A stretch of DNA of 64,000 nucleotides from positions 62,001-126,000 of the IMG/VR virus record IMGVR_UViG_3300013132_000026. One strand, given 5' to 3'. How positions within the stretch are numbered: position 1 is the stretch's first letter; each line of letters starts with the position of its first letter. Source of the DNA: a virus. Shown here one piece after another: positions 11,147 to 37,570 of this stretch. The notes beneath the pieces were generated by a model that was given only the letters and a program-made list of their open reading frames with translations, did not search any database and was not told the origin of the DNA. Both the position numbers and the translations under genes were made by a program.

Positions 11147-11162
11147 CTACTAGTAAATATTA

Positions 11163-11696
11163 TTATGTAATCGAGAATGTTCTAACCCCATCTGTGCCAC
11201 CAGTTAACTTTGTTAAGCCCTTTGGCGATTGGGCGTTGATATAAACAGTATGTGTTCCCGTAGCGAGCTTCGAAGTCACATCGGCTGGGATCGTAAATGA
11301 AAACACTCCCGTAGTGGTGTTAATGTCTGTGCCGTTTGCGTAAATGACTTGTGGCGTATTCCCATTACTAGCTGGACTATCTATATGAGCCGCCAAGGAT
11401 AATGTTGGAGTAAGAATTGTGGTAGCTCCAAGAGTCCTGTTGAACGTTGCCGTTCCGGTCAGTGTGATAGTGGCTCCCTTAGCGTAACTTGAACTAGAAA
11501 GAGCATCAAAAGTAGCGGCTGTTCCCGCACCCTCTCCAACCAAAGTATAAACATAGTTTTGTACCGTAGTGTATGGATTTGAAAATGGCGACGTTGAAAG
11601 CTTTTTTAAATAATAGATAACCCCCAAAACCGTCGAATAGTTCCGTTTATTGATTTTCGTCGCCGCTAACTGTTCTGGAGTATATTGAATAGACAT
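11163..11696 (-). CDS. Small Ig-like virion protein between the two J parts
   Basis: A 177-residue protein, unrecognised by name. The N-terminus (QYTPEQLAATKINKRNYSTVL) looks helical. Residues about 55-177 are Thr/Ser/Ala-rich and strand-rich (ATITLTGTATFNRTLG, TGTHTVYINAQSPKG), ending like an Ig or bacterial big domain. It lies between the two halves of the J-like protein, so it is very probably a tail-tip component. It could be a spacer domain split from a larger J protein. Confidence 0.75.
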   Translation of the reverse strand: MSIQYTPEQLAATKINKRNYSTVLGVIYYLKKLSTSPFSNPYTTVQNYVYTLVGEGAGTAATFDALSSSSYAKGATITLTGTATFNRTLGATTILTPTLSLAAHIDSPASNGNTPQVIYANGTDINTTTGVFSFTIPADVTSKLATGTHTVYINAQSPKGLTKLTGGTDGVRTFSIT

Positions 11697-11708
11697 TTTT
11701 TATGGGAC

Positions 11709-12551
11709 TTAAAAGCCGGGAGGAAGCGTCTTTTTAAAGTCGTCGTTCAAGTCAATTGGTGGAATATTTACTCTTGTGCTGGCTCCACCAACCGACGAAG
11801 CGGGATTGAAATTGGTATTTGTTGCCGCGTAGTAAGCACCATCAGTGGTTTCGCCTTCTGAAATCGAGTCGTCGCCGATAGTATATGCATACGGGCTTTG
11901 AACCAATCCGTAGAAACTAACATCTCTAATTTGTAAATTAGACTCTCCATCCAATCCCCAGTATAAACGCAAGAGAAGCGTCGATTCTTTGGCTGTTCCA
12001 GCTTTTGTTCCCTCATCTACAGTATCCGCCAAAGCTTCAATTAAAAAGTTTACACGAAGCTTTTTGACATCGCGGTTTCTGATTTGATGAGTAAATATGA
12101 ATGGGTCTTGTGGTGTCGTCGGCCAACCATCGGTTGAACGCGCCCAGCTTGTAAAGTTTCTGCCATCTAACTTAACGTCGTCCTGCATCGTGATCGGGCC
12201 GAGCAGTTTAAAGCTTGCTGGTTTAGAGATGTAAACGTTTTTAAAGTTGACTAAAGCTTTTTGTTTCTCTGTACCAAAGTTTACTTCGAGGAGAATGTTT
12301 CTGTAATTGTATTCTCCACTAACGTTCATAACTGGAACGCCATTCAAATAAACTCCCTTTAGCATATCTAGGCCATAAACTTTTTTGCCAAACGGATCGA
12401 CAATACCTTCGATTGGACCCTCGCAAAGCAAGTCAACGATTTCTGCCACAGAAATAGACTTCTTGAGTTTCTTGCCCTCGTCTGGCGGCAGAAGTTTAGC
12501 CTCGGATGTTCCCATCCCTCTGAAAAATCTTAATGGATTTAGAATTTTCAT
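11709..12551 (-). CDS. J-like tail tip protein, N-terminal domain as a separate gene
   Basis: The chosen start MKILNPLRFFRG lies 1 nt after the stop of the I-like gene; an upstream in-frame start would run back into that gene. The 280-residue product begins with the same leader as the large J gene and then shows SVAEIVDLLCEGPIEGIVD and GVYLNGVPVMN, the signature of the extreme N-terminus of lambda J-type proteins. A PADI-like strand region follows. In most phages this is the first 250 residues of one J polypeptide, so here J appears to be split and the parts must assemble in the tip. Confidence 0.85.
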   Translation of the reverse strand: MKILNPLRFFRGMGTSEAKLLPPDEGKKLKKSISVAEIVDLLCEGPIEGIVDPFGKKVYGLDMLKGVYLNGVPVMNVSGEYNYRNILLEVNFGTEKQKALVNFKNVYISKPASFKLLGPITMQDDVKLDGRNFTSWARSTDGWPTTPQDPFIFTHQIRNRDVKKLRVNFLIEALADTVDEGTKAGTAKESTLLLRLYWGLDGESNLQIRDVSFYGLVQSPYAYTIGDDSISEGETTDGAYYAATNTNFNPASSVGGASTRVNIPPIDLNDDFKKTLPPGF

Positions 12552-12552
12552 C

Positions 12553-15519
12553 TTAGAATATAGATGGGAGTGACTGAATCGGAGGAACGCTTCTCTCGAT
12601 GCTTTCGTTTTGCGTTGACAAGAAAGTAACGCCAACACGAATTGTCGGAGACAAATACTTATTCACTCCCTTTGTAATCTCACACTGCCAGAAAGAAACA
12701 TACTTAGCGTAGCCTGTGTCTTCACGTTCCGAAGTGAACGTCACTAGTCTTTGGCTGTCTGCTTGAACTGCCGCAAGATCGATAACTTCAGAAGCGAATG
12801 CTCCTGTGCCGGAAAATGCTGTAGAGTTCTTTAAGAACACTGTGCCAACTGTTGCCGACGTTGCGCCAACACTAGTCCAATTAGCTGCCGTGCCGACAAC
12901 ATTGATTCTGTACTTCTTGCCAGCGACCATTGAAGATGCGGCGATATCTCCGCGTTGTGTATAGATCGGAGAATTTGGAGCGATCAAATTAGAATCGGTC
13001 TTGCGGTTGAGAAGCTGATTTTCTCCAACCACAGTGAACGAAGCCGCGCCAGTCTTTCTGTAAGAAATCTTAATCTTGTTTCTGCCGACACCAGTTCTAA
13101 GTCTGGCGTAAATTCTATGATATCCGCTCGTTAGCGTAACGGGCGAAACTGTTGGAGACGAGTCTACGTCGTGACTCGACGCTAAGATTCCGTTAACGTA
13201 CAAATCGGCAAAAGCGTCGTTTGTTTCGAGACATTCGATCTTAAAGTCGTAAGAATTTACTGGCGCGACCTTTCCGTTTCCAGTTGCAGCAGTCGCGTTC
13301 TTTGTAAACGTCATGCCAACAACAGGAGGAACCGAGCCAACGCCAATCGTTGACCACTGAGCGGAAGTGCCAACTTTTGTAATCTCGTAAACAGTGCCGC
13401 TATTCGCTGAAATAACGCTAATTTCTCTCACAGCTAGCGGATCGGTCGAGATGATGTCGGTGTTCTTGTTTAATGGGATATAGAAGTAGCCCAAAAATTC
13501 GAGCGTGTAGTTGCCGACATCAGAAGCGTTACTGTTGATCTCTGAAATATTTACTGCCGAGAAGTCGCCAGTATAGAGGTTTTGATTGATTGGCAACTTG
13601 ACATAACTCAAATAAGTGTCGAAAGTGCCAGACGCTGTTGGAATAGTTTCCGCTGTCCAGAAAGAGCTGTCAGTAGGCAACTTGCCCTGAGCATTAGACG
13701 TTGCGCGGTAAATTTGCTCTCTGATCGGTGGGATAAATAGTGACCAGAAATTATTCACTCCGCTAGTAAACAATTTTACAACGGCGCTGATTTTTGTTTG
13801 ATCTAGGATATCGGCGCTTTCTGCAACTACCGTGTAAGTTTCGGAACCGCTAGGCGATCCGCTCAACGTATAAGTAAAGGTCGTGTCGCTCGTTGTTGTG
13901 ATCGTGTACGTTCCGTTAGGATCTACTGCGCCAGTCAAGTTTGCAATCTGCGCCGAAGTTCCCGTGATTTCCGAAAGAACAATCGGATTGAAAGGAGTGG
14001 CCGAGTTTCCAAGAGTGATCGTCACTACCGCATTGCTGCGAGTTGCGCTTGCAATATACGACTTAGCGAGTGGAGGGTGCGTGTTTAACACCGCTCTACC
14101 AGCGGTTACTGTATAAGTTTCCGTTCCCGTATCCAAAGTAGCTAATGTGTAAGTGAATTGATTTGCGGCAGTTACGGTAATATTGTAGTAGCCGTTTGCA
14201 TCAACATTGCCAGTGCTCAGTCCAGAGATCGTCGCTTTGAAGTTGCTTGCGAAATTATGATTCGAAGAAGTCGTAATGGTTACGGTTGCTCCAGATCGAC
14301 TCGCCGCCGAGATAGTTGCGTCGGCGGGAATACTCGTTGTGCATCTAAAGAAAATGCTACTTAACGTAACAATTTCTCCGCTAACGTATCGAGTGTTATT
14401 GTCCCAAGCCGATTTTGGCAACGCCTCGAATTGCGATGGCCCCCAAATAACCAAAGAGTTAGTCGGGTATAAAATCATGTAATTCGAATCGGTGCGGTTT
14501 TGCGCAGCGTTCGAAATTAATTGAAACTCTTGCGGGCGAGCGAAACGATAGAGCGCACCTTCAGAAAACGAGTAAGAATTTTCCTGCTGAATCGCGCTCT
14601 TTGTCGAATCTGAAGAAGACAATTGCTTCCATTTGTACGTCAAATCTTCATTGTACGTTGACAGATTTGGGTTCGAAATAATCTCACCGTCTTGCTTTAC
14701 TCGAAGCTCAACGATGTTAGACGAAACTTTTTTAGCGGACTTCGTAACGATATCAATGTACGACTGCGAGAGAGAAACATCGACAACTGAAACCGCATCT
14801 TCGAATACGGCAGTTTGATTCGAACGATACCCGTCGATTTCAAGTTCATCAATACCTTCGTAAGCTGGGATAGCGTCAATCGGCCTTGAAGTTGGCGTCA
14901 TCAAAGCCTTCACATCGTAATTTAAACGATAATTATTGATCGAGGCGCTGATTTGCGAGCTGCCGATGATTAGTCTGCCATAGCCAACTGGAACGGCTTG
15001 ACCTTGAGAAGTGTTGCTCGGCTTGCTTCCGAAAAGATAAGACTTGCCGCCCGCAGAAACTTCTTGATTAAAGTCAGGTTTGGGCGTTGGGAATAATAAT
15101 CCCATGACGCCCTGCGTCAATAATGCAGCACCAACAAGTATACCGGCTTTCGCAGCAGTTCCACTGAGAATTGCTAAACCACCAGCAGCACCGAATCCGC
15201 CCGAGATTGTGATAAGCGCAACAGCCGCGACAATCAAAAGAATATTCTTTACGCTATCTCCAGCGCCCCACACCACAGGAACCAAATGAATTTCTTGTGG
15301 CGTTTTAATGATGTCGAGTTCGAGAGGATCTTCGATAACTTGATCATCAACAACGATTCTGTAAAATACACCTTTCGCCGCCAGCTTCTTTAACGCGGCC
15401 AAAAAGCCGCGACGATTTGCATTGATCGCAGTAAACGCTTCTCTTGGTTTCGAAATGTTGTATCGAAACTCATGACCAAACAAGTTGCGTAGTTCGCCGT
15501 ATAGATAAATGTTAGTCAT
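12553..15519 (-). CDS. Tail assembly protein I-like, with long C-terminal extension
   Basis: A 988-residue protein; lambda I is only about 220. Residues 1-210 match the I family: an N-terminal ubiquitin-like strand pattern (TNIYLYGELRNLFG), a glycine/alanine hydrophobic stretch near 95-145 and FGSKPSNTSQGQAVPVGYGR. The extension carries a carbohydrate-binding-like motif split around two copies of a Thr-rich beta repeat (TVTITTSSNHNFAS and a relative). It also has a PA14-like segment (YDFKIECLETNDAFADLYVNG). It is part of the L-K-I-J operon and overlaps K by 8 nt. The extra domains suggest that it is also a structural tip protein. Confidence 0.85.
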   Translation of the reverse strand: MTNIYLYGELRNLFGHEFRYNISKPREAFTAINANRRGFLAALKKLAAKGVFYRIVVDDQVIEDPLELDIIKTPQEIHLVPVVWGAGDSVKNILLIVAAVALITISGGFGAAGGLAILSGTAAKAGILVGAALLTQGVMGLLFPTPKPDFNQEVSAGGKSYLFGSKPSNTSQGQAVPVGYGRLIIGSSQISASINNYRLNYDVKALMTPTSRPIDAIPAYEGIDELEIDGYRSNQTAVFEDAVSVVDVSLSQSYIDIVTKSAKKVSSNIVELRVKQDGEIISNPNLSTYNEDLTYKWKQLSSSDSTKSAIQQENSYSFSEGALYRFARPQEFQLISNAAQNRTDSNYMILYPTNSLVIWGPSQFEALPKSAWDNNTRYVSGEIVTLSSIFFRCTTSIPADATISAASRSGATVTITTSSNHNFASNFKATISGLSTGNVDANGYYNITVTAANQFTYTLATLDTGTETYTVTAGRAVLNTHPPLAKSYIASATRSNAVVTITLGNSATPFNPIVLSEITGTSAQIANLTGAVDPNGTYTITTTSDTTFTYTLSGSPSGSETYTVVAESADILDQTKISAVVKLFTSGVNNFWSLFIPPIREQIYRATSNAQGKLPTDSSFWTAETIPTASGTFDTYLSYVKLPINQNLYTGDFSAVNISEINSNASDVGNYTLEFLGYFYIPLNKNTDIISTDPLAVREISVISANSGTVYEITKVGTSAQWSTIGVGSVPPVVGMTFTKNATAATGNGKVAPVNSYDFKIECLETNDAFADLYVNGILASSHDVDSSPTVSPVTLTSGYHRIYARLRTGVGRNKIKISYRKTGAASFTVVGENQLLNRKTDSNLIAPNSPIYTQRGDIAASSMVAGKKYRINVVGTAANWTSVGATSATVGTVFLKNSTAFSGTGAFASEVIDLAAVQADSQRLVTFTSEREDTGYAKYVSFWQCEITKGVNKYLSPTIRVGVTFLSTQNESIERSVPPIQSLPSIF

Positions 15520-15874
15520 AACGTTTCTTTAACATATCAACGTATTCTTTCTTAACGTGCGATACCTTGGGCATCACCAAGTTGAATTCTTGAGTCTGCT
15601 TGCTGTAAATAAGATAAGGAATGCAAGAATTGTCGCAATTGAACTGGTCGAACTTCGACTCGTCTTCGCCCGTCTTTGGGTGCGAGTGATAGATCGCAAC
15701 AAGATTACCCGAACGAATCTTCTTCAAGATTTCGAGCGGATGAATCTCAAATATATTATCGGCGTAAGTGGCAATGTTCTTCGCTGGCTCAGTTTTCAGT
15801 TCGCCGTTCTCAACGGTTACGAATCCGCAAACTTCCAAATCGGACGATAAAGCGTGTTCAACGATTGTAGTCAT
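15512..15874 (-). CDS. Tail assembly protein K-like, JAB/MPN metalloprotease domain only
   Basis: A 120-residue JAMM metalloprotease. The expected zinc-site residues are present: E14 in LEVCGF, H63 and H65 in HSHP, S73 and D76 in the S-x-x-D motif. Lambda K carries this domain plus an NlpC/P60 peptidase; only the JAB half is present here. Its start overlaps the L stop (TAATG). It probably processes or chaperones tip proteins. Whether the peptidase half exists elsewhere in the genome cannot be seen. Confidence 0.88.
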   Translation of the reverse strand: MTTIVEHALSSDLEVCGFVTVENGELKTEPAKNIATYADNIFEIHPLEILKKIRSGNLVAIYHSHPKTGEDESKFDQFNCDNSCIPYLIYSKQTQEFNLVMPKVSHVKKEYVDMLKKRYD

Positions 15875-16854
15875 TACTGATTAAAATTGATCGGGTACTC
15901 CTCGGTTCCCGGAAACCCACCGAACGGTAATTCTGCATTTTCACCAAAGCGCAGCTTGCAGCCGCCGATAGACTTTGAGCACTGATCTGCCATCCAGAAC
16001 TCTTTATTGATAGATGGATTTTTGCCTGCGGTAGCAGTATGAGCCTTAACGCAAATATAGAACTTTTGAAGCGGTTTCCAGTTTGGGTTCGCGTTGATAT
16101 TCTCTTCCGAGACTTTTACATTCGTGTTTTCAACGTAAACGTAGTCGGCTATCGAGTAGCTTGTGCCGGGCGTCCAGCGTCCTTTATTCACTTTGGTTGC
16201 TAAAGACGTTGACGTGCCAGCTTCAATATTGATAGCATTCTCGAACAATTGATTATTATCGTCAGCTACTGGAGGACCATTGAATCCGCATCCGTTGCCG
16301 CGATAATGAAACGAACAGTAACGCGACATTACGATACGCTTCGGGAACGTGACGCTATCGAGTTCAAGAGGCGAAGCGAGTTCAAGCTCAACGATTGCCC
16401 GATTTTCGGACGAACGGCGCAGAACGAAAAAGACTTGATCTTCTAGCCCAGCAGTTGCATCTGCGGCACCGTATGGATTCTTCGAGTCCGAAAAGTTAAC
16501 GTTGTCCAAGAACTTAAGGAACGTTCTCTTACGGACAACTTTTGCGCCAATAAGGTTGTTATAACGGCGAATAAGGTTCGAAACAAAGAAGTCTTGGTTC
16601 GAAATAGTTAGTTTCGGGCGCGGAAGCGAGCCGTCACCCTTGGTCTCGAAGCCTGAGCTTTGGATCGGAAATGGCAAATACTCCTGACCTTGCCAGTAGA
16701 TCGAACCGTTTATCCCATTTGTGCCGCCATGAATGTAAAGTTGTTGGTCAGGTTGATTAACGTAGTCGTAATAAATAACAAAAAACTCCAAAAGAGCCGT
16801 TGGCTCTAGTGAAAAAAGCTCCGCATTGACTTTCTGGTTAGACTCCCTTGACAT
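15874..16854 (-). CDS. Minor tail protein L-like, Fe-S cluster protein with insert
   Basis: A 326-residue protein and the first gene of the leftward tail-tip operon. Two cysteine pairs, C180-x8-C189 and C292-x6-C299, match the four-cysteine iron-sulfur pattern described for lambda L. Between the pairs is an insert of about 100 residues, much longer than in lambda. It contains the motif W-T-P-G-x-x-Y..DYVYV..YICVKAHT..FW, which resembles chitin-binding CBM5/12 modules. A GTGTAA-type late box precedes the gene and a purine-rich AAAGG/AAAAGG ribosome site lies before the ATG. Confidence 0.9.
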   Translation of the reverse strand: MSRESNQKVNAELFSLEPTALLEFFVIYYDYVNQPDQQLYIHGGTNGINGSIYWQGQEYLPFPIQSSGFETKGDGSLPRPKLTISNQDFFVSNLIRRYNNLIGAKVVRKRTFLKFLDNVNFSDSKNPYGAADATAGLEDQVFFVLRRSSENRAIVELELASPLELDSVTFPKRIVMSRYCSFHYRGNGCGFNGPPVADDNNQLFENAINIEAGTSTSLATKVNKGRWTPGTSYSIADYVYVENTNVKVSEENINANPNWKPLQKFYICVKAHTATAGKNPSINKEFWMADQCSKSIGGCKLRFGENAELPFGGFPGTEEYPINFNQ

Positions 16855-16878
16855 TTCCTTTTACCTTTAGATTATATT
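16848..16878 (+). promoter_or_regulatory. Sigma70-like promoter, leaderless geometry
   Basis: TTGACA at 16848-16853 and TATATT at 16873-16878. The predicted transcription start falls on or beside the ATG at 16885. It overlaps the opposite-strand late box of the L-like gene. Confidence 0.6.
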
Positions 16879-16882
16879 ACAC
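16865..16882 (-). promoter_or_regulatory. Late box of the tail-tip operon
   Basis: Minus-strand GTGTAATATAATCTAAAG, 28 nt before the L-like ATG. It resembles boxes upstream of other structural genes in the window and also contains a TATAAT core. Confidence 0.55.
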
Positions 16883-16884
16883 CG

Positions 16885-17364
16885 ATGAGCGATAAAAACC
16901 AGATAAAAATCGAGGGTTCAGAAGCCGCTCAGATGCGACTCAACGATATTCCCGATGTTTTGAGGCTGGCGACCAAAGCTCAGGCTCAATTCAAACTTTT
17001 CCCGATAGACTCGCCATCAACGATTTTGAGGGAAATATCACTTGTTTTGCAGAAAAACTTTAGAAATTCCGTCATTTTCCACGCAGAAGACGAAGTTGTC
17101 GCTGCGTTCATTTTACGCGCCGAGACGAGCGTTTCGGCAGAACTCGTTTACAGTTTCACGTCGTCGGAAGAGCTTTTGACAGCAGAAATGGCCGAAAAGT
17201 TTAAAAAAACGCTGACAAAACTAGGATTTTTGGTAATAAATGCGAAAATTCAAACTAGCCGTAGAGACCTTGACTCGCTTTTAACGTTTTTAAAAGATGT
17301 TGGTTTCAATGAGATTTCGAGCGAAAACGATGCTTTCGTGTCAATTCGCATCAGAATAGCTTGA
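16885..17364 (+). CDS. Small protein, GNAT-like fold possible
   Basis: A 159-residue soluble protein. Residues 25-60 have the helix-rich start and residues about 65-95 the paired strands (SVIFHAEDEVVAAFILRA, SVSAELVYSFTS) expected of a GNAT core. LLTFLKDVGFNEIS near the end looks like the final GNAT strand. It has no clear acetyl-CoA loop and could be a structural relative. It opens the rightward early operon directly behind a promoter. Confidence 0.55.
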   Translation: MSDKNQIKIEGSEAAQMRLNDIPDVLRLATKAQAQFKLFPIDSPSTILREISLVLQKNFRNSVIFHAEDEVVAAFILRAETSVSAELVYSFTSSEELLTAEMAEKFKKTLTKLGFLVINAKIQTSRRDLDSLLTFLKDVGFNEISSENDAFVSIRIRIA

Positions 17365-17387
17365 CTTTTCGTTAAAAACGATAAGAT
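17361..17387 (+). promoter_or_regulatory. Promoter whose -35 overlaps the upstream stop codon
   Basis: TTGACT (17361-17366) contains the TGA stop of the previous gene. TAAGAT at 17382-17387 leaves 7 nt to the ATG at 17395, so the transcript would be nearly leaderless. The spacer is short (15 nt). Confidence 0.45.
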
Positions 17388-17394
17388 TTGCGGA

Positions 17395-17772
17395 ATGAAG
17401 TTCGACAGGCTCGTTCAGCTTGCCCGCAATCTTGTTATCTACGATAATATCGATTTGCGCTGCCGTCATTTCGCTTTTATCCTCGATAAGAAGCGGATCA
17501 TTGCTATCGGCAAGAACTCAAAAAAGTCTCACCCGATTAACCACAAGTACGGTTACTTCGACGGTTCTGGACTGCACGCCGAAGCGTGCGCAGTTATCAA
17601 GTCGGGTCACATTGACCACTCGAAACACACGCTCGTCACGTTTCGCATCGACCGAAACGATAAGGTCGCGATGGGTAAACCGTGCAAGCATTGCGAAAAA
17701 CTTCTAAAAGATGTTGAATTTAAGAATATTTTCTATTCTAATGAAGAGGGAGAGTTCGTTCGCGCCAAATGA
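17395..17772 (+). CDS. Cytidine/deoxycytidylate deaminase-like protein
   Basis: A 125-residue zinc deaminase. The catalytic pattern is visible as H61-A-E63 in LHAEACAVI and P96-C97-x-x-C100 in GKPCKHCEKLL. Length fits a minimal deaminase domain. The substrate could be a free nucleotide (feeding dUMP/dTMP with NrdAB) or nucleic acid; the sequence does not decide. Its stop overlaps the next start (ATGA). Confidence 0.85.
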   Translation: MKFDRLVQLARNLVIYDNIDLRCRHFAFILDKKRIIAIGKNSKKSHPINHKYGYFDGSGLHAEACAVIKSGHIDHSKHTLVTFRIDRNDKVAMGKPCKHCEKLLKDVEFKNIFYSNEEGEFVRAK

Positions 17773-18758
17773 ATATTTTAATTATCGAAGCTACTAGCAA
17801 ACGCAAGCCGCTTGCAGAAGACTACAGCGACACGTCAATCGTTCACTGCCGCAACAGCATTATCTTAAAGAACGCTCTAGGAGCCGATCTTCTTGACGGG
17901 GAGTACGCACTACCCCAAGTGCTCGAAAAGCAGTATGACGTGATTATATGCGCCTACGCTTCGCCTTATATGCCGCACGTTCCGTACCGCGAGATCATCA
18001 AGAAGAACCCGAAGGCTCGGTACATTTGGCTCGTTAACGATCACGACATCGAAGACAATCAACTTTTGCGTTGGGGCGTCATTGAAATGGGCCTCAAGTA
18101 CGACATGATCTGCAACAATCCGCGAAACGGATATCGGCACTGGATCTTGAACAAGAACATCGCAAATAAGAAATTGAACGACTTTATTGGCGAGTGGCTC
18201 ACGGTAAATCTCAACTCGCTGATCATGGACGACTTTGCTCCCGTAGACTTGACTGCCAAGAGCGGGATCATTTACTACGGTACTTACAGAAAGTGGCGTC
18301 AGAATTCTTTCGAGCGTTTTTTGACAAAAGGAGTTACGCTCTCGGCTTCGAACAAAAATTGGAAAAAATTTCAAGCAATCAATTGCGATTGCAATTACAT
18401 CCCGAAGCTAGAGTGGACAAAGAACAACGAAGATTTACGCAAATATAAATATTCGATATACATGGAAGACGTGCATACTCGCGACAATTATGCCTATCTC
18501 GCAAATCGCTTCTACGAAGGATTAATGGCAGACACGGTCGTGTTGTTCGACTCGGAATGCAAAAACACAATCGAGAAGTGCGGGTACTCGTTGTCCGAGA
18601 ACGTTATCGTCACGCCAGAAAAATTATCGATTGGCTTGACGAACTACGTTGAAACGCTCAACTTTGAAACTGAATTAAACCATCAGCGGTCATTTCTCGT
18701 TAAAGCTTACGGCGAAAAGCGAGACACGATCAACCAAATAAAAGATTTTATTAAATGA
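17769..18758 (+). CDS. Glycosyltransferase-like protein (GT-B type)
   Basis: A 329-residue protein. The N-terminus MNILIIEATSKRK is a Rossmann strand. FIGEWLTVNLNSLI leads to a second-domain start SGIIYYGTYRKWRQNSFERF, and YAYLANRFYEGLMADTVVLFD resembles the nucleotide-sugar-binding helix of GT-B enzymes (R-x-x-E-x-x). Phages use such enzymes to glycosylate DNA bases or virion proteins; the target here is unknown. It sits between the deaminase and small genes, which hints at nucleotide or DNA modification, but that is inference. Confidence 0.65.
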   Translation: MNILIIEATSKRKPLAEDYSDTSIVHCRNSIILKNALGADLLDGEYALPQVLEKQYDVIICAYASPYMPHVPYREIIKKNPKARYIWLVNDHDIEDNQLLRWGVIEMGLKYDMICNNPRNGYRHWILNKNIANKKLNDFIGEWLTVNLNSLIMDDFAPVDLTAKSGIIYYGTYRKWRQNSFERFLTKGVTLSASNKNWKKFQAINCDCNYIPKLEWTKNNEDLRKYKYSIYMEDVHTRDNYAYLANRFYEGLMADTVVLFDSECKNTIEKCGYSLSENVIVTPEKLSIGLTNYVETLNFETELNHQRSFLVKAYGEKRDTINQIKDFIK

Positions 18759-19054
18759 AAGCTACTGTTCGTTTCGTTATCTCAAGCGTCTCGGCGTCCG
18801 AAATCGGCATTGATTTTCGCGAACTCTACGTCGTCGAACTAAACGATTATCAATTCGAAGGAGCCGAAGGTGGACAATATGTGACTTGTAAAATCGTTAA
18901 TACCAATAAATTCGCGCCGTTTCTTCTTGAAATCGCAGAGATTTCTTTCTGCGCCCATTCTTTAGTGATTCGCGCATGGTTCGTTTACAACTTCGAGAAA
19001 GAGAAAGAGTCTCGTTTATTTCGCGGTTCACTAGAAATTCGAGGAATTCACTAA
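18755..19054 (+). CDS. Small hypothetical protein
   Basis: A 99-residue protein, start overlapping the upstream stop (ATGA). It is strand-rich (TVRFVISSVSASEIGIDF, YVTCKIVNTNKFAPFLLEI) and looks like a compact beta fold. Not recognised. Translationally coupled in the early operon. Confidence 0.7.
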   Translation: MKATVRFVISSVSASEIGIDFRELYVVELNDYQFEGAEGGQYVTCKIVNTNKFAPFLLEIAEISFCAHSLVIRAWFVYNFEKEKESRLFRGSLEIRGIH

Positions 19055-19055
19055 T

Positions 19056-19274
19056 ATGAATCGATACGCTATTCTCAAAGATATTATTGTTCAAGCCGAT
19101 TGCCCAATCGAAGACAGGTCTAGCGACCGAGTTGTTTTGCCGAGCGGTGAAGAAATTCCGGTTTACGGAGAAACATTCGACTTGTTCGACGCATCTCTTC
19201 GTTACTGGACAACTGGCAGCGGCTGGGTGTTAAAAATCACCGATAACGACTTACCTTACTTTAAAAAGATTTAA
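19056..19274 (+). CDS. Small hypothetical protein
   Basis: A 72-residue acidic protein starting 2 nt after the upstream stop. Contains SSDRVVLPSGEEIPVYGETFDLF and no recognisable domain. Its tight spacing and coding quality support a real gene. Confidence 0.65.
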   Translation: MNRYAILKDIIVQADCPIEDRSSDRVVLPSGEEIPVYGETFDLFDASLRYWTTGSGWVLKITDNDLPYFKKI

Positions 19275-19275
19275 T

Positions 19276-19932
19276 ATGATAACAAAAGAAGAAAGCGAGA
19301 AAAAAGTTTTTTCCGAATTTTTGCTTGTTAAAAACAGCGCTGAAAAAATTCTTGGCAAAACAATCAAAAACGAAGAGTTTAAACGGGCTATTGCCGACGT
19401 ATCCAAAAAGATTATTGTTTTGGCGCGAAATAAAGAAGATAAAGATAATACGCTAGTCGATGACATAAAAGCGTTTATCGAATTTTTTGACAATTGCAAG
19501 CATCTTCTCAGGAATACTGTTTGGAACGAGATACAAGAAAAGCATCTTAAAATCGAAATTTCTTACGAATCGAAAGCTATTTCGAGTTGGAAAATTCCAA
19601 TCGAAATGATGTTCTCTCATCCAGAGTCGTTCGAGGTCGGTATGCCGACACTAATCGAAAGCTTCGAAGACGTGTTTCTTTATTCGTGTCTCGACCCGTC
19701 TTACCGTCAACGAATCATGCAGGGCGACGATCAAGCGATCAAGATCTTGTACTCTGTATTCCAAAATAACGGGACAAGCAGTTGCTCCGCGATTCAGCTA
19801 ATGATCAAAGAAAATTTCCCCGAGTTTTACGATCACATCACGAAAAAACTCGATGTAATGAAGTTCGAGGAAATTCCCGAGGAATCGAAAGCTAAAAAAG
19901 GGAGAAAACGCAAGCAGGTGAAACACAAATAA
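19276..19932 (+). CDS. Hypothetical helical protein with basic tail
   Basis: A 218-residue, mostly helical protein ending in a lysine/arginine-rich tail (KAKKGRKRKQVKHK) that could contact nucleic acid. The central GMPTLIESFEDVFLYSCLD region has no match I can name. It starts 2 nt after the previous stop. Confidence 0.7.
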   Translation: MITKEESEKKVFSEFLLVKNSAEKILGKTIKNEEFKRAIADVSKKIIVLARNKEDKDNTLVDDIKAFIEFFDNCKHLLRNTVWNEIQEKHLKIEISYESKAISSWKIPIEMMFSHPESFEVGMPTLIESFEDVFLYSCLDPSYRQRIMQGDDQAIKILYSVFQNNGTSSCSAIQLMIKENFPEFYDHITKKLDVMKFEEIPEESKAKKGRKRKQVKHK

Positions 19933-19936
19933 TATT

Positions 19937-20587
19937 GTGCCATATCTAAACGCCAATATTCCCGTTTTCGCGGCCTACGTCAAAAGCGATTTTTTCTACA
20001 ACAACACCAACACAAAGACAGACTATGTTCTTTGCGAAGTGTTTGGAATCACTAGTTTAACGCGACGATGCCTCACGTTTCAAATAATGACCGAGTACGG
20101 ATCGCGACACGACCGAGTGCCGATTCACTATCTCGTTAACGAGCCTGAGCACAGCAATCTTCCGTTAGACTGGCTCCAGCTTTGGGACTGTTTCTCTTAC
20201 AACTTATCGGTTACTCGTTGGGAATATCACAAGAACGCTCAAGTTAAAATTCAATTAAAGAATCATGAATGGATCAAAGGTAAATACTTATTTACAATCG
20301 ATTGGCACGACAATCCCGATGCGGCGTATGGCTACAGCGAGATGGCGGGCGGTCACAAGTGCGGTCACGTCATTTGGGGCGTTTCTGACAAAGACGGGAA
20401 GCCAGTTAACCAACTTTTTTGCCAGCCCAACAACCGTGTCGTCTGGTCGGACGGCGGCGCGTTCATCTCGAAAAAGCTCGAAAAGCCGGATTGGAAAGTC
20501 TTCACGCAAGAGTTTTCGTGCGAAGGCGGCACGAAATGGGTAGCCGAAGATAACTGGGACCATTTTTACCAGTTCAAAGAAGAATGA
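19937..20587 (+). CDS. Conserved phage-type hypothetical protein, GTG start
   Basis: A 216-residue protein starting at GTG, 5 nt after the upstream stop. It has recognisable blocks: LWDCFSYNLSVTRWEY, GKYLFTIDWHDN, YSEMAGGHKCGHVIWG and CQPNNRVVW. I recall related proteins in other phages without known function. The conserved H-K-C-G-H block could bind a metal. Overlaps the next gene by 4 nt. Confidence 0.7.
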   Translation: MPYLNANIPVFAAYVKSDFFYNNTNTKTDYVLCEVFGITSLTRRCLTFQIMTEYGSRHDRVPIHYLVNEPEHSNLPLDWLQLWDCFSYNLSVTRWEYHKNAQVKIQLKNHEWIKGKYLFTIDWHDNPDAAYGYSEMAGGHKCGHVIWGVSDKDGKPVNQLFCQPNNRVVWSDGGAFISKKLEKPDWKVFTQEFSCEGGTKWVAEDNWDHFYQFKEE

Positions 20588-31677: not shown

Positions 31678-32694
31678 ATGAGTAAGATTACGAAACTGAC
31701 CGAAGAACAGGTTGCAAAGCTAGACGTTTACGTCAACGAGTGGGTCGCCAAGGGACTCACGACCGAGCGTAAGACTCAACAGGACGCAGAGCGCGATTTC
31801 ACTGAATTTCAGCGTCACGTTCTCAAGCGCGAACCCTCCCCCGTTATTCTTCTTGACTCGCCTGCCGATTGCTGGCGCGTCGTTTTGCAGCACACGCTGC
31901 GCGAGAACGACGAAGTCAAACAGCTTCTCAACGAGAAGATCGAGAAGAAGCTGGCGTTGAAGAAGAACAAGAATGCTGCTCGCGAGAGCATCGAAGCTTC
32001 GATCTTCGAAGAAATCTTGAACGATGCGGAGAAGACGATCCCCATCGTTTACCCGTACTTCGACTGTCAGTTCTGGGCCGGATGGTTCAGCTTCTACGAG
32101 TTTTGCAGAAACGAACTGAAGATCTCGTTCGACAACATCACCGAATACACGGCGATGCTCAACTGTCAGCCTTACGGCATGGTGTGGCCCCTCGACACGA
32201 TTTGCGTCGTGTGCCAACCCCCGACCGTGATCGAGCGCAACGAGCGCAGCTTGCATTGCGAAACTGGTCCTGCGGTCTCGTACAACGGTAAAAACGAGAT
32301 TTATTCTCTGAACGGCATCGTTGTGCCAAAGGAACTCGTAACGACGCCTGCCGAAGACCTTTCGCTCGATTTTTTCACGAAGGAAAAGAACGCTGACGTA
32401 AAGGCAGAATTCGTTCGTAAATACGGGATAGAACGGATGCTTGACCTCGGCAAGCGAGTCGATTCTTACGAGAACTATGACGCCAACACGCACGAATGGT
32501 GGCACAAGAGCGAGTACGAGCTTTGGGACATGGCTGCGCTGTTTGGTATCGACTATCAGCCGTACCTAAAGATGAGGAACCAAACGACCGACATATGGCA
32601 CGTCGAAGCCGTTTCTCCCGCTTGTCGCACGCTTCGAGACGCGATCAAAGAGCGTTTCGGTGGTCGCGAGATGAAGATCGTCGCAATCTCCTAG
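31678..32694 (+). CDS. DUF6745-like protein
   Basis: A 338-residue protein. The core matches DUF6745 as I remember it: GMVWPLDTICVVCQPPTVIE, RNERSLHCETGPAVSY, IYSLNGIVVPKELV, then a region with NADVKAEFVRKYGIERMLDL, ending at a C-terminal ACRTLRDAIKERFGG. The N-terminal 120 residues are charged helices (KIEKKLALKKNKNAARES). Function is unknown. Some family members elsewhere carry runs of Q-V-x-x repeats; here such repeats are in separate genes 1-4 kb downstream. Confidence 0.72.
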   Translation: MSKITKLTEEQVAKLDVYVNEWVAKGLTTERKTQQDAERDFTEFQRHVLKREPSPVILLDSPADCWRVVLQHTLRENDEVKQLLNEKIEKKLALKKNKNAARESIEASIFEEILNDAEKTIPIVYPYFDCQFWAGWFSFYEFCRNELKISFDNITEYTAMLNCQPYGMVWPLDTICVVCQPPTVIERNERSLHCETGPAVSYNGKNEIYSLNGIVVPKELVTTPAEDLSLDFFTKEKNADVKAEFVRKYGIERMLDLGKRVDSYENYDANTHEWWHKSEYELWDMAALFGIDYQPYLKMRNQTTDIWHVEAVSPACRTLRDAIKERFGGREMKIVAIS

Positions 32695-32747: not shown

Positions 32748-33083
32748 ATGAACAGCAATGAAGTGATCCTCCACGGCGAGTGCATGGTGTTTCGTTCCAC
32801 GATCCCAGCAAACGCCAAGCCGAAGCAGAAGAGCAAGACTGGCTTCGTTATCGTCGCAGATTCGGAAACTTCTGGCAATCATCACGTTGTCGATGAAACG
32901 GTTGGCGTAGACTTTTACGAAGCGGACGGCAAGCTGTACATGAACAGCTCTGTCGATACGACGATTCGTTGTTTGCACGCCGAGCGTCACGACACGATCA
33001 AGCTGACTGCCGGAACTTACGAGTTTGGCTCGCAGCAAGAGTACGATCCGTTCACGGCTCGCCTCCAAGCGGTGCGCGACTAA
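32748..33083 (+). CDS. Small conserved partner-type protein
   Basis: A 111-residue beta-rich protein with VIVADSETSGNHHVVDE, VDFYEADGKLYMNSS and a C-terminal GSQQEYDPFTARLQAVRD. I recall similar proteins next to DUF6745 genes, which suggests a shared task. The histidine pair in GNHH could bind metal. Stop overlaps the next start (TAATG). Confidence 0.65.
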   Translation: MNSNEVILHGECMVFRSTIPANAKPKQKSKTGFVIVADSETSGNHHVVDETVGVDFYEADGKLYMNSSVDTTIRCLHAERHDTIKLTAGTYEFGSQQEYDPFTARLQAVRD

Positions 33084-33511
33084 TGGACGAGTCCGATCTC
33101 ATCAAACGCGAAAAAGTAGTCGTTGCGACCAGCGGCTACTTTAATCCGTTGCACGTTGGACACATCGAGCACCTTGAAAAAGCGAAACAACTAGGTGATG
33201 AGCTAGTTGTTATCGTCAATTCGGATCGTCAAGTTGAGCAGAAAGGCTCGAAAAAGTTTCAAACAGAAGCTGACCGACTACGGATCGTAGCGGCACTAAA
33301 GTGCGTTGATCGTGTTGTTTTGTCCGTAGACGAAGACACGACTCAATGCAAAACGCTTGCTCTATTAAAACCAAACATTTTCGCGAAAGGCGGCGACCGC
33401 TTCGCGTCAGAAATCCCAGAAACTCCCGTTTGCAAAGAACTTGGAATAGAGATTGTTGACGGTCTCGGCGCAAAGATTCGCGCCAGTTCTGAAATTTTAA
33501 AGCATATTTAA
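33083..33511 (+). CDS. Nucleotidyltransferase (cytidylyl/adenylyl, HxGH family)
   Basis: The 142-residue protein starts at ATG 33083, coupled to the upstream stop; an in-frame start at 32969 lies inside that gene. NPLHVGHIEHLEKAKQL holds the H24-V-G-H27 signature and residues about 65-100 resemble RfaE C-terminal / glycerol-3-phosphate cytidylyltransferases. It would activate a sugar phosphate or polyol phosphate with a nucleotide, perhaps for the glycosyltransferases encoded elsewhere in the window. Confidence 0.85.
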   Translation: MDESDLIKREKVVVATSGYFNPLHVGHIEHLEKAKQLGDELVVIVNSDRQVEQKGSKKFQTEADRLRIVAALKCVDRVVLSVDEDTTQCKTLALLKPNIFAKGGDRFASEIPETPVCKELGIEIVDGLGAKIRASSEILKHI

Positions 33512-33594: not shown

Positions 33595-33720
33595 TTGCGG
33601 AAAGAAATTGAGAGTCACTTGGCGAACCAAGTGGCGGGCCAAGTGAAGAGCTAATTGGGGAGTCAAGTGGAAGAACAAGTGTGGAACCAAGTGCGGGGTC
33701 AACTGGAGAGGCAACTTTAA
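33595..33720 (+). pseudogene. Broken NQV-repeat gene
   Basis: A repeat-containing frame (HLANQVAGQVKS, stop at about 33652-33654, then LGSQVEEQVWNQVRGQLERQ) has no normal start and an internal stop. It runs directly into the intact paralogue at 33720. Read as a decayed first member of the array. Confidence 0.55.
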
Positions 33721-34052
33721 TGAATTTTTCTAAAGCGATCAAAGGTCGAGTACGGGACCATGTGAGACTGCAAGCGTTGGATCGGATTCGAATGCCGCCC
33801 CAAGTTAATCACTTGGATAATCAACTGCGGCTCCAAGTGCATGGTCAAGTACGGTCCCAAGTGTGGGAGCAAATGGGGTTCCGAACGTGGAACCAAGTGC
33901 TAAACCAAGTGCGGGGTCAAGTGTGGAGTCAAGTGGATAGCCAAGTGGATAGCCAAGTGTATCGCCAAGTGCTAAACCAAGTGCGGAACCAAGTGGAGAA
34001 CCAAGTGGGGAGACGAGTGTGGAACCAAGTGTTGCGCCAAGTGTATGACTAA
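33720..34052 (+). CDS. NQV-repeat protein 1
   Basis: A 110-residue protein. The start at 33720 begins the family leader MNFSKAIKGRVRDHV; an upstream in-frame GTG is in the decayed repeat. The N-terminal half is degenerate (RLQALDRIRMPPQV) and the C-terminal half is nearly pure x-x-Q-V (SQVDSQVDSQVYRQVLNQV). A valine every fourth residue with polar or aromatic neighbours suggests a helix or a solenoid. Function unknown. No transmembrane segment or signal peptide. Confidence 0.7.
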   Translation: MNFSKAIKGRVRDHVRLQALDRIRMPPQVNHLDNQLRLQVHGQVRSQVWEQMGFRTWNQVLNQVRGQVWSQVDSQVDSQVYRQVLNQVRNQVENQVGRRVWNQVLRQVYD

Positions 34053-34069
34053 GTGAGGAGGTGCCTTCA

Positions 34070-34339
34070 ATGAACATTTTTAAAACAATTGAAAAGCAAC
34101 TGTGGATACAAGTGTGGGACCAAGTTGTGAATAAAGTGCAAGCTTTAGGGCGGACCCAAGTGGATCGCCAAGTGGGAACTCAAGTGGTGAATGAAGCGTA
34201 TAGCCAAGTGCGGAATCAAATGACGATCCAAGTGAGGAGACGAGTAACGAGTCAAGTAACGACTCGGGTTGATGACCTAGTGGTGAATCAAGTACAGGTC
34301 TTGGTTTTACCTGAAGTGACAAACCAAGTACGCAGTTGA
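34070..34339 (+). CDS. NQV-repeat protein 2
   Basis: An 89-residue protein starting MNIFKTIEKQLWIQVWDQV, preceded by a good ribosome site (GAGGAGGTG). The repeats are more diverged than in its neighbours (TSQVTTRVDDLVVNQVQVLV), so this copy may be older or under less homogenisation. Confidence 0.7.
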   Translation: MNIFKTIEKQLWIQVWDQVVNKVQALGRTQVDRQVGTQVVNEAYSQVRNQMTIQVRRRVTSQVTTRVDDLVVNQVQVLVLPEVTNQVRS

Positions 34340-34368
34340 GTGACAAACCAAGTGCGGAGACGCCTTCA

Positions 34369-34701
34369 ATGAATTTTTCCAAAGCAATTAAAGACCAAGT
34401 GGGGGATCAAGTGCGGGACCAAGTGGATAGCCAAGTGTATCGCCAAGTGCTAAACCAAGTGCGGAACCAAGTGGAGAACCAAGTGGGGAGACGAGTGTGG
34501 AACCAAGTGTGGGAGCAAGTGCTAAACCAAGTGCGGAACCAAGTGTGGGACCAATTAGGGAACCAAGTGGGGAGACGAGTGTGGAACCAAGTGTGGGAGC
34601 AAGTGTGGAACCAAGTGTGGGACCAATTAGGGAACCAAGTGTGGAAACAAGTGCGGAGCCAAGTTCGTGCACAAATACCGCATCAAATCTCAAAATTATG
34701 A
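34369..34701 (+). CDS. NQV-repeat protein 3
   Basis: A 110-residue protein starting MNFSKAIKDQVGDQVRDQV. About 24 consecutive four-residue units, the purest of the array. It shares an identical 87-nt block with protein 1 and has an internal duplication (GRRVWNQVWEQV twice). Ends in RAQIPHQISKL. Confidence 0.72.
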   Translation: MNFSKAIKDQVGDQVRDQVDSQVYRQVLNQVRNQVENQVGRRVWNQVWEQVLNQVRNQVWDQLGNQVGRRVWNQVWEQVWNQVWDQLGNQVWKQVRSQVRAQIPHQISKL

Positions 34702-34733
34702 AAAAAATTTATAATCGAGACGAGAGCAACTCT

Positions 34734-34925
34734 ATGAATGTTTTTAAAAAATTTGAAAACCGAATACGGCTCGAATTAAGATTTTCAGAGAACATTTGGT
34801 TTAACGCTATGCGCTCCCCGAAGTGCAAAGTCGATGATTCGTTAGAATTTAGAATCTGGGGCGAAATTAAATTTAGCACTCAAACTTTGGTTGACGATAT
34901 TGTTCTTTCGTCGAGAACGCGATAA
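34734..34925 (+). CDS. Array member without repeats
   Basis: A 63-residue protein that begins with the family leader MNVFKKFENRIRLELRF but continues with ordinary sequence (KVDDSLEFRIWGEIKFSTQT). It may show the ancestral form: an amphipathic N-terminal helix plus a small beta unit. An alternative start at 34698 would add 12 residues. Confidence 0.6.
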   Translation: MNVFKKFENRIRLELRFSENIWFNAMRSPKCKVDDSLEFRIWGEIKFSTQTLVDDIVLSSRTR

Positions 34926-34992
34926 CACGCCGCCTTTGGCGCATTATCGAACAAATTTCCATTTAACGCGCCGTTTTTGACGCGCAAACATA

Positions 34993-35214
34993 ATGCCGCT
35001 TTTCGAGTCAACGGTGAGAAACGCGATTCGCGAACAAAGCGTTCGCCGTGTATGCGAAAAAATTTGTAACGCCGAAGATCATTTCGAGCGTGCAATTTCG
35101 CGCAGTTTCGATTCGAATCTATTCTACTCGCGAATAAATTGGACGATTAGCCCAGATTCTCTCGCTTTATCGACGATAATCGCCGTTATAAAACACAAAT
35201 TCGATGAGTCTTAA
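34993..35214 (+). CDS. Array-associated small protein
   Basis: A 73-residue protein (MPLFESTVRNAIREQSVRRV). An N-terminal amphipathic helix with V/I every third or fourth residue is followed by SNLFYSRINWTISPDSLALS. Probably a diverged relative of the repeat genes. The preceding 67 nt hold two short GC-rich inverted repeats. Confidence 0.6.
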   Translation: MPLFESTVRNAIREQSVRRVCEKICNAEDHFERAISRSFDSNLFYSRINWTISPDSLALSTIIAVIKHKFDES

Positions 35215-35419
35215 CGTTAAAAAAATAACATCTGAGATAAAAAAGGCCAACTATGTATCGAGCTCCGCAATTCGCGAGCAAGTTGCAACGTGCTCGACGT
35301 TCGTGACCGCTTCCGTTTCGCACGTTAAGTGGTCGCGTGAAGACGCTTTTGTTCTTTTGCTCGATGCGCGAGTTAAAATAAACTCTTCTGTGTTTATAGC
35401 CCGCCGAGGCGTACGATGA
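35204..35419 (+). CDS. Array-associated small protein
   Basis: A 71-residue protein (MSLNVKKITSEIKKANYVSS) overlapping both neighbours. TFVTASVSHVKWSREDAFVL is strand-like. Unrecognised. Confidence 0.6.
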   Translation: MSLNVKKITSEIKKANYVSSSAIREQVATCSTFVTASVSHVKWSREDAFVLLLDARVKINSSVFIARRGVR

Positions 35420-35637
35420 AACAACTTTATCTTCCGCAAATATTAAAATATCATGTCGCGCATAACGTTCGAATGCGAGTGAAAGAGCAAATGTGGCTTG
35501 TCGTTGGAGAGCAGATGAACTATGTTCGCGAAGGATTGTTGATCGGACATCGACTAGAATCGAACGTTATACTCGAATTGCAGCGCGAACTCATCATTCC
35601 AGTTGCGTCTCAAACGAGACACTCTAATCTTCTCTAA
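35416..35637 (+). CDS. Array-associated protein with degenerate repeats
   Basis: A 73-residue protein. MRVKEQMWLVVGEQMNYVRE keeps the E/N-Q-M/V spacing of the array in eroded form, supporting common descent. Starts at the ATGA overlap with the previous gene. Confidence 0.6.
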   Translation: MKQLYLPQILKYHVAHNVRMRVKEQMWLVVGEQMNYVREGLLIGHRLESNVILELQRELIIPVASQTRHSNLL

Positions 35638-35874
35638 ATGAACATTTTTGAAACGATTAAAGATCAAGTGCTAAACCAAGTGGAGAACCAAGTGTGGAAC
35701 CAAGTGTGGGACCAATTAGGGAACCAAGTGGAGAACCAAGTGGGGGAGCAAGTGCGGGACCAAATGCGGGACCAAGTGTATCGCCAAGTGGGTCGCCAAG
35801 TGGGTCGCCATCTGATGAACCAAGTGATGAACCAAGTGGAGAATCAAGTGAGAGATCGATATGAATTTAGATAA
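35638..35874 (+). CDS. NQV-repeat protein 4
   Basis: A 78-residue protein starting MNIFETIKDQVLNQVENQV directly after the previous stop. Shares about 59 identical nucleotides with repeat protein 6. Ends NQVRDRYEFR, overlapping the next start by 14 nt. Confidence 0.7.
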   Translation: MNIFETIKDQVLNQVENQVWNQVWDQLGNQVENQVGEQVRDQMRDQVYRQVGRQVGRHLMNQVMNQVENQVRDRYEFR

Positions 35875-36076
35875 AAAAATTGAAGATCGAGTGTGGGTCC
35901 AAGTGGCGCGTCAAGTGCGGAACCAAGTGCAGATCCGAGTGCGGTCCCAAATGCGGGACCAAATGTGGAACCAAATGACAAACCAAGTGTGGAACCAAGT
36001 GTGGAACCAAGTATACGACCAAGCGGTGATACGAGTGCGGAGCCGAGTCGATGACCGAGTGCGGAATCGTTTTTAA
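35861..36076 (+). CDS. NQV-repeat protein 5
   Basis: A 71-residue protein, leader MNLDKKIEDRVWVQVARQV, then units including DQMWNQMTNQVWNQV. Stop overlaps the next ATG (TAATG). Confidence 0.7.
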   Translation: MNLDKKIEDRVWVQVARQVRNQVQIRVRSQMRDQMWNQMTNQVWNQVWNQVYDQAVIRVRSRVDDRVRNRF

Positions 36077-36363
36077 TGAATTCTTCTAAAACAATTAAAG
36101 ATCAAGTGTGGAGCCAAGTGTGGGGCCAAGTGCGGAACCAAGTGGAGAACCAAGTGGGGGAGCAAGTGCGGGACCAAATGCGGGACCAAGTGTGGAACCA
36201 AATGCTAAACCAAGTGCGGGGTCAAGTGTGGAACCAAGTGTGGGACCAAGTGTGGCATCGAGTGTGGAACCAAGTGCGGAGCCAAGTGTCTCGCCAAATG
36301 AAGATCCAAGTGTCGGATCAAATGAAGATCCAAGTGGTGAGCCAAATGCAGGGCGAACTTTGA
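36076..36363 (+). CDS. NQV-repeat protein 6
   Basis: A 95-residue protein, leader MNSSKTIKDQVWSQVWGQV, with over 20 units and a C-terminal variant block (MKIQVSDQMKIQVVSQM). Stop overlaps the next ATG (TGATG). Confidence 0.72.
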   Translation: MNSSKTIKDQVWSQVWGQVRNQVENQVGEQVRDQMRDQVWNQMLNQVRGQVWNQVWDQVWHRVWNQVRSQVSRQMKIQVSDQMKIQVVSQMQGEL

Positions 36364-36506
36364 TGAAACTTTCTAAAAACATTCAAAATCAAATTCGCAC
36401 AGCAGTTAACGACAAAGTTTGGGACAAAATTTACTTTGCTATCGTTGACACCGTGTCAAAACATACGCTAACTAAATACTCTTCTCAAAGAAAACTCGCA
36501 CTTTAA
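36363..36506 (+). CDS. Last array member, short and repeat-poor
   Basis: A 47-residue protein, leader MKLSKNIQNQIRTAVNDKVW, then ordinary sequence ending SSQRKLAL. It resembles a single-helix version of the family. Confidence 0.6.
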   Translation: MKLSKNIQNQIRTAVNDKVWDKIYFAIVDTVSKHTLTKYSSQRKLAL

Positions 36507-37291: not shown

Positions 37292-37570
37292 GCCAAAAAC
37301 CACGTTCGAATGGGTTAACACAATGCCCCTTCCCCTCGAAGAATATACATAGGGGAGACGATAGACGTATAGATAGAAAAGAAGAATAGAAATATAGAAG
37401 AGAAAGACAAAAGAAAGATAAAGGAAAGATAAAGGAAAGATGAGAGAGAAGTGAGGGGGGTTAGAGATTATTTACTGTCCACGACTCCTCTATTTTTTAT
37501 TCATTTTTATTCATTCTCCCCCATTTTCGCCCACGTTATCCCGCTGCTATTCTTTCCAGTTCTTTCTAGT
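37292..37570 (+). other. Purine-rich intergenic tract
   Basis: No convincing gene. From about 37370 to 37450 the + strand is almost pure purine with imperfect repeats (AAAGATAAAGGAAAGATAAA). A weak reading frame upstream of 37571 is in frame with the next gene but lacks a good start. Mirror-image pyrimidine tracts occur at 46.4-46.65 kb. Confidence 0.6.

Follow-up and report, generated by a model that had tools for sequence, protein, structure and literature searches.

The closest described relatives of the locus analysed here are DUF6745 proteins of phages. In the Mycobacterium prophage prophiGD102-1, gp38 (DUF6745) contains the same x-x-Q-hydrophobic tetrad, with variable first and second residues (x1 and x2), and has the partner gene described below next to it; its repeats lie within the DUF6745 chain, whereas those of the present locus are encoded by separate genes. 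The protein gp174 of Microcystis phage Ma-LMM01 (PHROG 31813) shares the DUF6745 core and has the partner directly upstream, but its 10.6-kb region showed no internal repeats and no array of small genes. The tetrad stretch shows a weak likeness to DUF4816 (PF16086, E=6.5e-6); membership in this family was rejected, as the score of 26.4 bits is below the cut-off of 29.4 and the match is of low complexity. In gene 'accordion' amplification, viruses under selection acquire tandem paralogues with fast copy-number change; the array described here differs in that units are also shuffled within genes and in that a domain of a protein encoded next to it gave rise to the family. Searches of open-licence full texts for DUF6745 by name, for the repeat strings and for tandem hypervariable small phage genes returned nothing, in agreement with the statement in the initial annotation that no such system was known from phages.

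The window, the whole stretch of 64,000 nucleotides that was analysed, comes from a viral record of 127 kb and carries genes for a ribonucleotide reductase, a tail protein and a rIIA homologue, which identify the virus as a tailed phage. Translation of the open reading frames in the window sequence placed 11 ATG ORFs in a head-to-tail row, together with a decayed copy, in positions 33595-36506; the initial annotation had recognized the decayed copy but counted ten intact genes. About 1 kb upstream of the array lies a DUF6745 gene (39.2 bits to PF20530, against a curated cut-off of 27), and in between are the partner, which adjoins DUF6745 directly downstream, and a cytidylyltransferase-like gene that is probably a bystander. 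The features are as follows (window coordinates):

31678..32694, + strand: DUF6745 core protein, 338 aa, both terminal domains (N and C) present, no tetrad segment (Pfam PF20530, E=6e-10)
32748..33083, + strand: conserved partner, 111 aa, GHxH...HEEH...QREY motif, PHROG 27831 (HMM; PHROG E=0.001)
33083..33511, + strand: cytidylyltransferase-like gene between partner and array (PF01467, E=5e-18)
33595..33719, + strand: decayed array copy without ATG and with an in-frame TAA (frame translation)
33720..34052, + strand: tetrad protein 1, 110 aa; TAA stop at the CAA position of a unit, followed by a 6-residue remnant
34070..34339, + strand: tetrad protein 2, 89 aa, truncated by an early TGA stop
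34369..34701, + strand: tetrad protein 3, 110 aa
34734..34925, + strand: diverged member 4, 63 aa
34993..35214, + strand: diverged member 5, 73 aa, also present in L010
35204..35419, + strand: diverged member 6, 71 aa, also present in L010
35416..35637, + strand: diverged member 7, 73 aa, ATGA 4-nt overlap with member 6
35638..35874, + strand: tetrad protein 8, 78 aa
35861..36076, + strand: tetrad protein 9, 71 aa
36076..36363, + strand: tetrad protein 10, 95 aa, predicted to form a single long helix (AlphaFold2)
36363..36506, + strand: short diverged member 11, 47 aa

Six ORFs (33720, 34070, 34369, 35638, 35861 and 36076) are made up of x-x-Q-V tetrads over nearly their whole length, and six was also the number given initially for genes of this kind. 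The near-invariance of CAA and GTG noted at that time was borne out by counting: among the 109 units of the window, the Q codon was CAA in 91 of 91 cases (61% in other genes) and the V codon GTG in 77 of 86 (9% in other genes). The periodicity is equally evident at the DNA level, with a lag-12 identity of 0.70 over 300 nt compared with a mean of 0.28 and a maximum of 0.40 in the rest of the window. The longest exact blocks common to array genes measured 92, 60, 46 and 42 nt, similar to the 87, about 59 and 39 nt first reported. From 34993 on the genes are tightly packed, with intergenic gaps of -14 to 0 nt. The remaining ORFs (34734, 34993, 35204, 35416 and 36363) hold few or no Q-hydrophobic dyads; they are thus repeat-poor, as had been stated for all of them but 35204, but the suggestion that such members retain the original fold does not suit at least 35416 and 36363, which by eye look like diverged tetrad copies. 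Genes 1 and 2 have lost their terminal residues through premature stops within units, and the remnants, VRRCLQ* (gene 1) and VTNQVRRRLQ* (gene 2), finish at the ATGA of the following gene, so that an ancestral 4-nt overlap after both genes, like that seen in other phages, is likely. Scans for promoters and terminators returned about as many sites as in shuffled sequence. Downstream of the array, positions 37360-37450 form a purine-rich GA/AAAG low-complexity tract.

When an array protein was searched against 50,697 phage records, the top match was the DUF6745 protein of a Mycobacterium abscessus prophage, which contains about 45 internal GDQL/WGQL-type units. None of the eight array proteins scanned matched PF20530, and the likeness is confined to the repeat segment of DUF6745 proteins. 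Judged by sequence, the array repeat is the same repeat that is found inside DUF6745 proteins of other phages and of bacteria. Other matches of array proteins were rejected: a PDB sequence match to an ARID protein with QMPG repeats was attributed to low-complexity chance, and Pfam/NCBIfam matches to trigger factor, SurA and GvpQ did not reach the cut-off and are of a kind common with helical sequence of low complexity.

Two queries, the DUF6745 sequence of the window and an alignment of DUF6745, were used to scan viral contigs, and the viral locus set comprises 80 of 251 DUF6745 relatives; bacterial genomes were scanned as well. The module was found in phages, actinobacteria, cyanobacteria, alphaproteobacteria, planctomycetes and Deinococcus plasmids; matches above cut-off were present in 10 of 396 sampled Actinomycetota genomes and in 23 of 292 sampled Cyanobacteriota, some of which had several matches and one eight. 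One cyanobacterial DUF6745 ORF (L258) is preceded by in-frame leucine-rich-repeat-like sequence.

A DUF6745 protein has three parts: an N-terminal and a C-terminal domain, and a segment between the two. In the first class, found in phages and bacteria (hereafter cis), this segment is made up of about 8-66 tetrads. In the second (trans), it is absent or decayed, and the tetrads are encoded in the vicinity by tandem small ORFs, as in the window and some two dozen further viral loci. All loci were scored by period-12 DNA within or outside DUF6745, which was located by HMM search. The count was restricted to viral loci found via DUF6745 alone, not via the repeats, and covered 1.5 kb on both sides. 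After clustering at 90%, 18 of these loci were trans-only, 14 cis-only, 3 both and 6 neither (Fisher p=4e-4); at 70%, the corresponding numbers were 10, 14, 1 and 5 (p=0.002). A tree of 60 DUF6745 C-terminal domain rows, with switches counted from the cis and trans rows alone, required at least five changes between the two layouts, and cis and trans loci occurred as sisters in L013/L015, L044/L088 and L219 versus L220+L222. In phylogeny-corrected contrasts all 3-4 informative pairs pointed in the expected direction, with p values of 0.125-0.25 in an underpowered sign test. The window lies within a clade of six trans rows. L013 (trans) and L015 (cis), which form the closest pair, have the unit motif TCACAAGTT in common. 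Ten of the 60 tree rows show DUF6745 with neither repeat form, and the putative rods are therefore not always needed. In L013, dozens of small tetrad ORFs flank DUF6745 on both sides (7161-19998 of a 368-kb viral contig) and overlap by 8 nt at most junctions, while another viral contig (L187, 1483-4043) carries two DUF6745 genes with trans ORFs in between.

The partner accompanies DUF6745 in the cis and trans layouts alike; its HMM matched in 144 of 168 DUF6745 loci from phages and bacteria (a redundant set), mostly adjacent to DUF6745. It belongs to a PHROG of unknown function (27831; E=0.001 for the window partner, 1e-7 for the L168 copy), and searches of Pfam and NCBIfam gave no match. With the L168 partner as query, tblastn against annotated phages returned one record only, which also holds DUF6745, and the HMM picked up the L009 and L237 copies that tblastn had missed. 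That the conserved histidines of the partner bind a metal is a guess. In Deinococcus and Streptomyces plasmids (L277, L278 and L281), DUF6745 and the partner stand beside an STM4011-STM4015 radical SAM cluster, which includes two radical SAM proteins; within open-licence full texts, STM4013 and STM4015 receive passing mentions only.

Turnover of the array could be followed in the contig L010, which is 94-95% identical to the window across long flanks. Its DUF6745 gene differs from that of the window by 6 nt (99.4% nt identity), whereas three array blocks present in the window (33663-34021, 34555-34899 and 35442-36496) are absent, the data being compatible with gain in the window or loss in L010, and array gene 2 is only 84% identical (nt) and has a different C-terminus. 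The array thus changes fast and DUF6745 hardly at all. This agrees with the initial view of a young, recombining array of variable copy number; an array that stays the same in related phages, named there as evidence against hypervariability, is not what L010 displays.

Selection on the units was assessed in L013 using 520 units chosen by matching neighbours, the units themselves being unconstrained. At the V codon GTT, in which both codon positions compared are T, 162 synonymous third-position changes stood against 6 second-position changes (p=1.6e-40), and the L013 tetrads are therefore under purifying selection at the protein level, with the Q-V positions kept. The window array, with 4 synonymous third-position changes versus 1 second-position change, is too homogeneous for such a test. 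Junctions between consecutive array ORFs showed a 4-nt overlap in 40 of 135 cases and an 8-nt overlap in 38 (together 78/135). In six cis arrays (L009, L041, L136, L141, L150 and L207) variation is largely restricted to 2 of the 12 nucleotides, namely position 1 of codon 1 and position 2 of codon 2. Across 17 cis arrays from phages and bacteria, x1 was W, R or G in 462 of 510 units (91%), and x1 is more varied in trans arrays than in cis arrays. Each cis locus encodes Arg by CGG or by AGG, never both, with AGA, CGT or CGC in three loci; since the Arg codon differs between loci, it is the residue set and not one DNA word that is shared. The exclusive use of CGG or AGG within a locus argues against random mutation at that base, a point that bears on a possible diversity-generating retroelement (reverse transcriptase plus template repeat), and random hypermutation of x1 in cis arrays was rejected because CGG and AGG are never mixed within a locus. 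We infer that cis arrays have grown by the shuffling of a small number of founder units and that selection acts on the residue set.

Structure predictions with AlphaFold2 suggest that the tetrad proteins are helical. Array protein 10 was modelled as one helix spanning residues 3-94 (mean pLDDT 81, six sequences in the alignment). In the model of the L015 DUF6745 protein, the N- and C-terminal domains exceeded a pLDDT of 90 over much of their length, and the helical middle repeat region was of low confidence (pLDDT ~37-67); a PDB fold search with this model gave nothing better than E=0.4. By simple arithmetic, successive 4-residue units on a helix are rotated by 40 degrees, and the V stripe would wind around the helix once per nine units.

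The reading that we favour, and hold to be probable, is that the array encodes a tetrad-repeat arm detached from the DUF6745 protein beside it, its rods working together with the DUF6745 core and the partner. Several points weigh against it: two genes separate DUF6745 and the array in the window, premature stops have shortened two of its six tetrad genes, the window array is too uniform to reveal selection on the protein, 10 of the 60 tree rows carry neither repeat form, the phylogeny-corrected contrast draws on 3-4 pairs only, and the repeat region of the L015 model is of low confidence. The array might instead be a mutational by-product without benefit, a slippage-prone 12-bp repeat whose frame stays open since the unit is stop-free, which would accord with unit codons that are near-invariant and unlike the codon usage of the genome, with the fast change in copy number and order, and with two genes that stop early within units and one copy that has decayed. 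We regard this as unlikely in view of the strong protein-level purifying selection in L013, the gene-by-gene start/stop overlaps that recur across many phages, the occurrence of arrays beside repeat-less DUF6745 far oftener than beside repeat-bearing DUF6745, and a W/R/G set common to loci despite their differing Arg codon. Equally centred on the repeat as nucleic acid is the idea that it acts as DNA or RNA, for example as a binding array or recombination platform, and that the ORFs are incidental; the near-fixed CAAGTG core of the window would fit, but at other loci the same residue pattern is spelled CAAGTC, CAAGTT, CAACTG, CAATTA, CAGGTC or CAGCTC, and in L013 third positions vary while the residue is kept, which makes such a role very improbable.

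Two further explanations concern the small proteins themselves. They may share ancestry with the DUF6745 repeat and now function separately as stand-alone hypervariable effectors, in line with the hypervariable early effector proposed at first, for instance as anti-defence inhibitors or decoys: turnover is quick, each phage has many paralogues, the genes are small and in tandem, and 4 of the 11 array genes of the window hold a single Q-hydrophobic dyad or none. The near-exclusive cis and trans layouts and the steady co-occurrence with DUF6745 and the partner point rather to a joint function, and PADLOC HMMs matched neither the window DUF6745 nor the 36076 protein, weak low-complexity matches being limited to L136 and an L013 array protein; we therefore consider separate effectors rather doubtful. 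That the small genes encode precursor peptides, with a leader and a repeated core to be modified enzymatically, is brought to mind by the plasmid loci in which DUF6745 and the partner adjoin STM4011-STM4015 with its two radical SAM proteins. We give this the least credence, as a non-systematic look noticed no modifying enzyme beside the phage loci examined and the cis repeat sits within a protein of 300-600 aa.

If the array is indeed a detached arm of DUF6745, each small protein would form a helical rod, as predicted, and the rods would stand in for the built-in arm by assembling with the partner and the DUF6745 core. Through recombination among the 12-bp units and among genes, the number and length of the rods and their two variable residues would keep shifting, and changing x1 and x2 residues and lengths could provide renewable binding surfaces, the target of which would most likely be the host or a rival. 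Hypervariability that serves an interaction with the host or with defence is plausible but unproven. More tentatively still, DUF6745 and the partner might represent an undescribed modular system, a conserved core that employs recombination-shuffled helical rods, either built-in or supplied as numerous separate small proteins, to offer varying pairs of residues in each four-residue unit to such a host or rival target. The initial annotation was correct in proposing rapid change but missed the source of the array, a repeat probably detached from DUF6745, whose gene stands with the partner beside it.

On this reading, a gene array that was unexplained becomes the split form of a widespread and uncharacterised DUF6745 module. 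The near-identical pair of the window and L010 shows array change in progress, and several independent switches between the cis and trans layouts would amount to a natural experiment in which repeat domains turn into separate genes.
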